Shown piece by piece: positions 43,422 to 59,021 of a DNA stretch of 64,000 nucleotides; the stretch's first letter is position 1; each line of letters starts with the position of its first letter. The DNA is from a bacterium (lineage in GTDB: Bacteria > Electryoneota > RPQS01), in contig DASXUQ010000002.1 in the NCBI GenBank assembly GCA_036504735.1, positions 1-64,000 on the forward strand, given 5' to 3'. Position numbers and translations under genes: made by a program. Below the pieces are notes generated by a model, which made no database searches, was not told the origin of the DNA, and saw nothing but the letters and a program-made list of their open reading frames with translations.

Positions 43422-43468
43422 GTGGTCGCCCTTTTCGAATTCTTCTGATTGCGCTCGCCACCTTTCGC

Positions 43469-43494
43469 CGCGCGGGGTGTCCTTACCCCGCGCG
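43469..43494. repeat. REP copy 1 at the transposase 3' end
   Basis: CGCGCGGGG (43469-43477) and CCCCGCGCG (43486-43494) form a perfect stem around TGTCCTTA. The transposase stop codon lies in its loop region. Confidence 0.85.
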
Positions 43495-43991
43495 TCCAAA
43501 CAAGGGAAAAGGGGGATCGGAGAGCTGAATAATCCCCGGCTTTTGAAGCCAATACCATCGCGCACTTGACCATTGGTACTGCTCCGGCGAAGTACACAGT
43601 CCCTTGTGACACGGATTCCAGTGCAGATAGTTCAGCTTAGTCCAGATAGCATTCGGTCCGGGAACCGGCACATCATCGAAAAGGTCCCGCCAACCTTCCG
43701 CCTGCGGGCAATGAAGGTGCAGCAATCTGCGGCTCGTGAACCGTTTGAAATGCTCCATCATCCGCGATGGCGTTCCTTCCTCCGTCGTCTGGATCAGGAC
43801 CGTGTGCAAATGGTCGGGCATCAACACGTAACCGAGACACGCGAGCCCAGTTCGATCCCGATAGCTTTCGAATATCGACAGCAACTCGGTACACAGTTGC
43901 GCGTCGCGAAACCAAATCCCCGCCGCCGGGTGACCGTGGTCACGAAATGCACGCTGCCGATCCCTTGATAGAGTTGGTGCCGTCGTAGCAT
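43483..43991 (-). pseudogene. Frameshifted REP-associated HUH transposase (RAYT)
   Basis: A Y1/TnpA_REP-type transposase in two frames. From an ATG at 43991 the first frame reads SVHFVTTVTRRRG, the family's N-terminal block. After a CCCC run at 43918-43921 (plus strand) the rest continues in another frame as WFRDAQLC, then the HUH motif LMPDHLHTVLI and the C-terminal NYLHWNPCHKGLC and QYQWSSARWY. One extra base would join them. RAYTs nick and mobilise REP hairpins; this copy is bracketed by inverted REPs and looks inactive, unless the base is a sequencing error. The stop is supplied by REP copy 1. Confidence 0.85.
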
Positions 43992-44001
43992 GTGCGTGTG
44001 G

Positions 44002-44027
44002 CGCGCGGGGTAAGGACACCCCGCGCG
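44002..44027. repeat. REP copy 2, inverted, at the transposase 5' end
   Basis: The same 9-bp stem as copy 1 but with loop TAAGGACA, so in inverted orientation. It ends 10 bases before the transposase start. Confidence 0.85.
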
Positions 44028-44070
44028 GCGAGGTTAGTGCCGTTCGTCCTCCGAAGAACATGCCGTGCTT

Positions 44071-44104
44071 GCGCCGGGCGGATCGCTGGGTATCCGCCCG
44101 GCGC
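44071..44104. repeat. 13-bp perfect hairpin
   Basis: GCGCCGGGCGGAT (44071-44083) pairs perfectly with 44092-44104, loop 8 bases. It is a different sequence family from the REPs on either side but has the same loop length. Confidence 0.75.
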
Positions 44105-44116
44105 AATACTCTTCGC

Positions 44117-44142
44117 TGCGCGGGGTGTCCTTACCCCGCGCG
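44117..44142. repeat. REP copy 3
   Basis: Same sequence and orientation as copy 1 with one G-T wobble at the stem base. It lies 22 bases past the aldehyde dehydrogenase stop and may also act as its terminator-like end. Confidence 0.8.
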
Positions 44143-44164: not shown

Positions 44165-45748
44165 CTACTTCTTCTTGGCGGTTTCGTCGGTGTCGATCTG
44201 CGCCTTCTGCAGCGTGCCGCTGTAGTCGACGTAGCAGGTCTTAACTTCCGAGAAGAATTCGTACGCACCCCAGCCGCCTTCGCGGTGGCCGTTGCCCGTA
44301 CCCTTCATGCCGCCGAAGGGCAGATGGGCTTCCGCACCGATGGTGGCGGAATTGATATAGGTGATGCCGGTTTCCAGTTCGCGGAAGGCGCGATAGGCGC
44401 GGTTCACGTCCTGCGTGAACACGGCGCTGGACAGGCCGTACTCGATGTCGTTGCCGACCTTCAGAGCTTCGTCGTAGTTCTTAACCCTGATCACGGACAC
44501 CACCGGGCCGAAGATCTCTTCCTGCGCAATCCGCATCTTCGGCGTGACGCCCGTAAAGATCGTGGGCTCCACGAACCAGCCGTTCTTGTATTCGATGCCG
44601 GTCTTGCGCTTGCCGCCCAGAACCAGCGTGGCGCCGTCTTCCTTCTTGCCGATCTCGATGTACTCGAGGTCGGTGTTCATCTGCGACTCGGACACTGCCG
44701 GGCCCATCAACACGCCGGGATCGTTGCCGTAGCCAATTTTCAGCTTCTTGGCGGCCTTGATGAACTTCTCCACGAATTCGTCATGGATGCCTTCTTCAAC
44801 GATCACGCGCGAGGTGGCGGTGCAGCGCTGTCCGGTGGTGCCGAAACCGGCCCACACGCAGGCGTCCACGGCCAGATCGAGGTTGGCATCATTGCAGATG
44901 ATCGTGCAGTTCTTGCCGCCCAGTTCCATCGAAATCCGCTTGAGCTGCGGCGCGGCCATTTCCATGATCTTGCGGCCCACACCGTTGGATCCGGTGAAGG
45001 AGATCGCCTTGACGTCCGGATGGGACACGATGGCATTGCCGACCTTGGTGCCCGATCCGAAGACCACGTTGATGACTTCCGGCGGGAAGCCGGCGTCGAG
45101 AATCGCATTGACCAGATTCCACACCGACAGCGGCGTGATTTCCGCCGGCTTGATGACGACCGTGTTGCCGCACATCAGCGCCGGGAACGACTTCCACGTG
45201 GGAATGGCCATGGGGAAATTCCACGGCGTCACCAGACCGGCCACGCCCATGGGCATGCGCACGGTCATGTTAAACTTGCTGGGAAGTTCGGACGGCACGG
45301 TCTTGCCGAACATGCGATAGCCTTCGCCGCAGGCATAGAAGGCGGTGTCGATGCCTTCCTGCACGTCGCCGCGGGTTTCGAAAATGGGTTTGCCCATTTC
45401 GCGGGTCATGTCGAACGCAAATTTCTCTTTGCGCTCTTTCATGATTTCCACCAGCCGGAAGAAGAGCTGCGCCTTCTGCGGCGGGGGAACAAGACGCCAC
45501 CATTCAAACGCCTTCTTAGCCGACTTAACCGCGCGGTCCACGTCAGCCGGACCACTGCGGGGGAAGGTACCGATAAGATCTTCGATGTTAGCCGGGTTGC
45601 GATTCTCGGAGACTTCTCCGCTGGACGCATCGCACCACTTGCCCGCGATGAAATTCTGGTACTTTTTGGTTTCGTGCTTGAACTTGTAGGTCACTGCCTG
45701 GCCGTTAGTCTTCGCTTTCGGAGCCTTGGCCTTGGTTTCAGGACTCAT
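44165..45748 (-). CDS. Aldehyde dehydrogenase
   Basis: A 527-residue NAD(P)-dependent aldehyde dehydrogenase. Motifs: VTPWNFPMAIPTWK, FTGSNGVGRKIM, the general base in MELGGKN, the catalytic Cys in GTTGQRCTATSR and EEIFGPVVSV. The C-terminal ending LPFGGMKGTGNGHREGG resembles dehydrogenases acting on amino-acid semialdehydes, so 2-aminoadipate semialdehyde from the lysine aminotransferase is a candidate substrate. A 30-residue Lys/Ala-rich extension precedes the domain. The ATG at 45748 follows AAGGAGCAGGAT. Confidence 0.93.
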   Translation of the reverse strand: MSPETKAKAPKAKTNGQAVTYKFKHETKKYQNFIAGKWCDASSGEVSENRNPANIEDLIGTFPRSGPADVDRAVKSAKKAFEWWRLVPPPQKAQLFFRLVEIMKERKEKFAFDMTREMGKPIFETRGDVQEGIDTAFYACGEGYRMFGKTVPSELPSKFNMTVRMPMGVAGLVTPWNFPMAIPTWKSFPALMCGNTVVIKPAEITPLSVWNLVNAILDAGFPPEVINVVFGSGTKVGNAIVSHPDVKAISFTGSNGVGRKIMEMAAPQLKRISMELGGKNCTIICNDANLDLAVDACVWAGFGTTGQRCTATSRVIVEEGIHDEFVEKFIKAAKKLKIGYGNDPGVLMGPAVSESQMNTDLEYIEIGKKEDGATLVLGGKRKTGIEYKNGWFVEPTIFTGVTPKMRIAQEEIFGPVVSVIRVKNYDEALKVGNDIEYGLSSAVFTQDVNRAYRAFRELETGITYINSATIGAEAHLPFGGMKGTGNGHREGGWGAYEFFSEVKTCYVDYSGTLQKAQIDTDETAKKK

Positions 45749-45840
45749 ATCCTGCTCCTTCAAAGGTTGAAATATCCAGCATGTGGCTGGGACTGAGATG
45801 AAATTACCGAGGGGGTATGTTTGGGTCTTCTAAACCTTGT

Positions 45841-58517: not shown

Positions 58518-59021
58518 TCAGCAATTTGTATCGTCCACGTTTCTTCGCTGCGGATTATTGCGAATATACTTCCTCGCTCCAATAAGCTCCTTGCGGTTCC
58601 GCAGCACGCGGTCAAAGAAACTTCGTTGCCAGCGGAATTCCGTTGGATGAAGACCTTCCCGATTGATGTGCTTGGTCGACTGAGTTTTGAACCAGCGGAC
58701 GAGTTCTGAAACTGGAGGACCACACGGATTGGTGGCGAAGTCCTCAGCGGGTGGTCGCATCTTGAGCAATCCGTGGACATGATCAGGCATGATGACAAAT
58801 GCATCCAACACAACATGCGGATAGTGGTGCGGCAACGCCTCCCAGCACGCGGCGACTACACACCCGATATCCGTGAGCCCTGCTACATTGTCTGCAATCT
58901 CGCTCAGACAGCAGTCCCTTCCATGAGTGCAGATGGTAACAAAATACACACCCGGAGCAGCATAATCGAACGCAGGATGACGTGGTGGCTTGCGCCTTAG
59001 TCTGGCCGCAAGGTGTTCCAT
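58518..59021 (-). CDS. REP-associated HUH transposase (RAYT), intact
   Basis: A 167-residue Y1-type transposase. PGVYFVTICTHGR is the N-terminal block, FVIMPDHVHGLL the HUH motif, LVRWFKTQSTKHIN precedes the catalytic-tyrosine region, and WQRSFFDRVLRNRKEL with ARKYIRNNP closes the family pattern. No frameshift is seen, so it may be active on the GTAG-GGGCGGGTT repeats at 59048-59231. AGGGGGCGCTC precedes the ATG at 59021. It is of a different subgroup from the broken copy at 43483. Confidence 0.92.
   Translation of the reverse strand: MEHLAARLRRKPPRHPAFDYAAPGVYFVTICTHGRDCCLSEIADNVAGLTDIGCVVAACWEALPHHYPHVVLDAFVIMPDHVHGLLKMRPPAEDFATNPCGPPVSELVRWFKTQSTKHINREGLHPTEFRWQRSFFDRVLRNRKELIGARKYIRNNPQRRNVDDTNC

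Follow-up and report, generated by a model that had tools for sequence, protein, structure and literature searches.

The window, by which we mean the whole analysed stretch of 64,000 nucleotides, contains a RAYT-type Y1/HUH transposase gene on its minus strand (43483-43991) that is enclosed by two inverted 30-nt hairpins, copies of a repeat referred to here as a REP. The features of this region are as follows.

43465-43494, plus strand: REP copy 1, at the 3' end of the RAYT gene, made up of an outward-pointing 5' tag (TCGC) and then a hairpin whose 6-nt loop is GTCCTT
43483-43917, minus strand: C-terminal block of the RAYT gene (from the open reading frame, PF01797 and alignment), with HUH motif PDHLH and Y motif YLHWNP, stop within REP copy 1
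43912-43925: stretch of the RAYT gene in which the frame changes; relatives with an intact frame exist
43917-43991, minus strand: N-terminal block of the RAYT gene (MLRRHQLYQGIGSVHFVTTVTRRRG), in another frame than the C-terminal block (from the open reading frame, alignment and dN/dS)
44002-44031, minus strand: REP copy 2, in the opposite orientation to copy 1; it lies 10 nt upstream of where the RAYT gene starts, and its tag points outward
44113-44142, plus strand: REP copy 3, tag TCGCT, 97% identical, between the RAYT gene and the next gene
44165-45763, minus strand: neighbouring gene with orthologues in other genomes, used as synteny anchor, which from its sequence we take to be aldehyde dehydrogenase-like (ALDH)

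REP copies 1 and 2 are perfect inverted copies of each other across 30 nt. Copy 2 is 10 nt away from the complement of the ATG start codon, whose last base is 43991, and the stop codon (43483-43485) falls inside copy 1. The N-terminal block (43917-43991) and the C-terminal block (43486-43917) lie in different frames, with a CCCC run (43918-43921) near the change, and an alignment with ten intact relatives leaves no gap between the two. A sequence-only reading of this DNA had described the tight mirrored enclosure, the places of start and stop, the displaced N-terminal block and the CCCC run, all of which we confirm; its limits for the unit (43469-44027) are a few bases too narrow to take in the conserved 5' tag, and the unit extends from 43465 to 44031. 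Between the unit and REP copy 3 there is also a hairpin with a perfect 15-bp stem (44069-44106), which was considered as a further repeat family and rejected, the genome having one exact site and one with 3 mismatches. The window has one more RAYT-like gene (58554-58814, minus strand; open frame of 179 aa, with Q at W+1 and R at W+10), which belongs to a distant other branch and beside which no flanking repeat was detected.

The C-terminal block matches the Y1 transposase model PF01797 with 25.4 bits (cut-off 23) and contains both the HUH and the Y motif. Against the NCBIfam model REP_Tyr_transpos it scores 62.6 bits, below the cut-off of 80, as expected of a broken gene. An intact sister gene in G009, a genome of the same family and a different genus, reaches 80.5 bits, and all ten relatives match this model with E values of up to 0.001. 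A profile made from the relatives finds E. coli TnpA-REP (4er8; E 2.4e-8). The TnpA-REP fold is recovered in a structural model of the intact G009 sister, rather than of the window copy (13 aligned sequences, pLDDT 90), for which 4er8 is the best match (Z 17.2, rmsd 2.9 over 146 residues) and IS608 the second best (Z 11.6). The NCBIfam model transpos_IS200 gives 19 bits against a cut-off of 55, which does not place the gene in IS200/IS605, and the window has YLHWNP in place of the Y----Q motif of class 3 TnpA-Y1 enzymes.

The two blocks of the window gene retain all 37 residues that do not vary in the ten relatives, together with 18 of 25 nearly invariant ones, and over 146 codons compared with the sister, dN is ~0.28 and dS ~1.55 (near saturation). 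Because every invariant residue is kept, the frame break is either recent or a sequence error, and both fit equally well. The sequence-only reading had proposed a recently dead mobile element; the recent death agrees with these values, as does an error, and the mobility fits less well, given the orthologous unit beside ALDH in another genus that is described below. A gene that is intact in the organism, with a frame change introduced by sequencing or assembly, has in our judgement somewhat less than an even chance: it would account for the conserved residues, the low dN relative to dS and the lack of an in-frame stop in either block, whereas the rest of the window looks intact (a rough model predicts 53 genes and a coding fraction of 0.84) and the next most similar RAYTs of the host are open. 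One RAYT match in the host (C8:155104-155427) contains a stop, so decay of RAYT genes does occur in this genome, which also speaks against an error. Unless the break is such an error, the window copy would yield no full enzyme. An intact copy elsewhere in the genome, for which the sequence-only reading had advised a search, was not found: the host assembly (97.95% complete) contains no second copy of this transposase, and its next best matches are 40% and 43% identical.

Further members of the repeat family, which the same reading had suggested looking for, are present in number. The host genome (4.16 Mb) was searched with a 24-nt core that excluded the 5' flank, allowing up to 3 mismatches, and this gave 26 copies, 20 of them exact, compared with 0 for a reversed-pattern control, a number well beyond chance. 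The search pattern omitted the tag, which is nonetheless conserved: CGC precedes the hairpin in 26/26 copies, as CGCC in 24 and CGCT in two, with a leading T in 18, giving the consensus YCGC(C). On the 3' side a single G follows in 25/26 copies, and conservation declines past the tag and this G. The GT(A/G)G head of classical REPtrons is absent 5' of the window's hairpins, a departure that the sequence-only reading had passed over, and the CGTC tag of another REP superfamily occurs in 0/26 host copies. Folded as single-stranded DNA, the unit has a predicted energy of -13 to -14.7 kcal/mol (z = -4.1 to -4.9).

The copies are dispersed, mostly between genes, as in REPtrons. Five of the 26 lie within predicted genes, whereas 3543 do so out of 4400 positions chosen at random in these loci; the gene model is rough, and some of the cases counted as inside, such as copy 1, come from over-long open reading frames. 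Where both neighbouring genes could be called (18 copies), 15 copies lie between tandem genes, 3 between convergent genes and 0 between divergent ones. A check of the 26 copies for inverted pairs (REPINs) showed only those flanking the RAYT gene within 1 kb of each other; nearly all copies are singletons. At one locus (L012) the end of a REP copy and its flank are partly duplicated in tandem behind the copy. The host genome also contains a second palindrome family (41 sites, L194-L208; GGGC[CG]G[AG]TC-3 nt-mirror), and most of its copies that were read are preceded by GTAG or GGAG. This family looks like a classical REP and coexists with the CGCC-tagged one.

Among 118 genomes searched, the repeat was found in five, with many copies in the host (G000) and in G009 and single matches in G002, G011 and G012. 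G009 has 48 copies; the count of tags there is biased, as the search pattern (up to 3 mismatches) itself contained CGCC. By eye, 7 of 33 listed G009 copies show paired stem changes. The sister RAYT of G009 has an open frame of 168 aa, is 61% identical to the C-terminal block of the window gene, and stands between the same hairpins, which again point inward, so that enclosure by two inverted REPs is seen in both genomes. It adjoins the same ALDH gene and shares a 22-bp stretch of the spacer with the window. In the tree the two RAYTs are sisters with support of 100/99, the window being represented by its C-terminal block only. For ALDH the identity is 82%, compared with 61% for the RAYTs. Of 12 ALDH orthologue loci, those of the host and G009 carry the RAYT; G006, assigned to the genus of G009, has none and shows a different hairpin at the same spot beside ALDH, and in G008 an unrelated-looking RAYT lies farther off. 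The named records that equal or closely resemble the relatives' loci are MAGs, with candidate division KSB1 and Calditrichaeota among their labels; one label (Puniceispirillum) looks wrong.

Since the same inverted-hairpin unit lies beside the same ALDH gene in another genus, we deduce that the RAYT unit is probably an old resident of this site, predating the split of the two genera, rather than a recent arrival. Vertical descent requires a loss in G006. Two independent insertions of related units, one per genus, into a REP-rich spacer beside ALDH are an alternative, and the lack of a RAYT and the different hairpin at the site in G006, like the frequent occurrence of REPs next to other hairpins, are compatible with such insertions. 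We regard them as unlikely, however, because among the sampled sequences neither RAYT has a closer relative than the other (100/99) and the divergence of both genes gives no sign of recent transfer.

The window most likely harbors a resident REPtron-like unit, that is, one RAYT (TnpA-REP) gene with inward-pointing REPs and dispersed copies, which would work by a mechanism analogous to that of studied RAYTs. The gene would encode a Y1 HUH single-strand DNA endonuclease, placed between two copies of its own hairpin repeat. By this analogy, the enzyme may bind the single-stranded hairpin on one strand, and the unpaired bases 5' of the hairpin foot (YCGC/C) could guide the choice of the site for nicking and rejoining. 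Nicking and rejoining, in turn, might spread or maintain copies between genes. If the repeats were instead plain transcription terminators or mRNA stabilisers that flank the gene by chance, the excess of tandem and convergent neighbours and the lack of divergent ones would be expected. This is quite improbable, as the repeats have no T run, carry a conserved tag on one side only, share an identical core in two genera amid unrelated flanks, and enclose sister RAYTs as mirrored pairs.

The REPtron-like reading also differs from that of a freely mobile IS200/IS605-like element that inserted recently and died soon afterwards. The tight mirrored ends and the single frame change would suit such an element, which we nevertheless consider very unlikely in view of the corresponding unit, at 61% identity, that another genus has in this position beside ALDH, the lack of a second copy in the genome and the low score against the IS200/IS605 model. 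The RAYT thus looks like a resident gene whose small repeats are dispersed, in the manner of a REPtron, rather than a recently inserted transposon. Programmed frameshifting that fuses the two blocks is hardly credible, even though they tile without a gap, because the ten aligned relatives (39-61% identity) have both blocks in one frame and, by our own reading of the sequence, the site has no classical slippery heptamer.

To place the tag in a wider context, we surveyed 80 loci, which gave 66 distinct RAYT frames; an inverted repeat flanks 26 of these. CGCCG occurs at the hairpin foot of 6/8 window-type RAYTs and 0/18 others, and GT(A/G)G at that of 0/8 and 12/18, respectively (Fisher p 1.2e-4, a value that treats related sequences as independent and uses a clade motif chosen after seeing the data). 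The flanking repeats of the other 2/8 clade members lack CGCCG, and no flanking repeat could be detected for 13 further clade frames or for 27/45 other frames. In a tree of the 66 frames, all rows with CGCCG fall within one clade of 22 (support 100/99), and the CGCCG tags in this survey are thus confined to a single well-supported RAYT clade from KSB1/Zixibacteria-like genomes. A second repeat family (B), of the form CGCCGA-GGCAGATC, is found in G009, G011 and G012; the search pattern did not include the tag, and CGCCGA is present in 25 of the 30 copies read out of 63 found.

Other members of the clade also occur near hairpins. The host has another RAYT from this clade, with an open frame (C9; L209), and near it lie hairpins tagged CGCCGA or GGCCGA (L209, 687-706, 1235-1254 and 1338-1357), one of them oppositely oriented. 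In G001 (L037, 1020-3179) a clade RAYT sits within an array of ~20 hairpins (GGCACTTGTCTYCAAGTGCC), mostly spaced at 47 bp.

Two published studies list Q95 and R104 of E. coli TnpA-REP among the residues that recognise GTAG (PMC6006769, PMC8266576). At the aligned positions, counted in 61 of the 66 frames (five were left out, having no W in the expected place), the clade has Q in 2/22 rows and R in 0/22, with P in 21/22, whereas the other 39 rows have Q in 30 and R in 23. Judging from these alignments, enzyme and tag seem to have changed together, and the clade enzyme may read the new tag. We give about an even chance to the proposal that this KSB1/Zixibacteria-like clade switched its guide, losing the GTAG-reading residues and now reading YCGCC(G), and that it represents a third kind of tagged REP with a transposase of its own and a lead to the missing transposases of CGTC REPs.

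According to the account in PMC2817692, it is established that inverted REPs headed by GT(A/G)G enclose RAYTs. As far as that account and PMC8266576 describe them, the REPtrons of E. coli TnpA-REP and the Stenotrophomonas RAYTs resemble the window unit in having a HUH/Y RAYT between inverted REPs, many extragenic copies and the 4er8 fold, and they differ from it in the tag, which is YCGC(C) here, and in the residues at Q95/R104, which the clade has replaced. Unlike many REP/REPIN families, the window's repeat occurs mostly as singletons rather than inverted pairs. The CGTC-tagged REPs, said in PMC3733652 to have no dedicated transposase and never to flank one, share an unpaired tag starting with C and a short perfect stem, but the CGCC-tagged repeats do enclose RAYT genes and none of the 26 host copies has CGTC. 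Class 3 TnpA-Y1 enzymes, as PMC6006769 characterises them, have CnGA at the foot and the Y motif YV[VI][AENY]EQ. The related family CGCCGA-GGCAGATC likewise has CCGA at the hairpin foot, but the Y motifs here (YLHWNP and YxHxNP) are as in class 2. IS200/IS605 elements (IS608, ISDra2) share the Y1 HUH core, and differ in that the window's ends are inverted copies of one hairpin, in addition to the profile score.

A word search of open-licence PMC papers found none on KSB1/Zixibacteria RAYTs or CGCC-tagged REPs, and the RepRanger paper (PMC12306157), in the passages covered, says nothing on tags or transposases. On present comparisons the locus appears to be a RAYT/REP system with a non-classical tag, and the combination of a YCGCC(G) REP with its own RAYT clade matches none of the systems compared above exactly.

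RAYTs are studied as domesticated transposases, and in the portions of the literature covered here a guide role of the 5' tag is demonstrated only in GTAG-type systems. A YCGCC(G)-tagged clade with RAYTs of its own bears on the claim, made in PMC3733652, that C-tagged REPs have no dedicated transposase. If the switch is real, a clade with another tag and matching changes in the tag-reading residues would be a natural test of the co-evolution of guide and enzyme.
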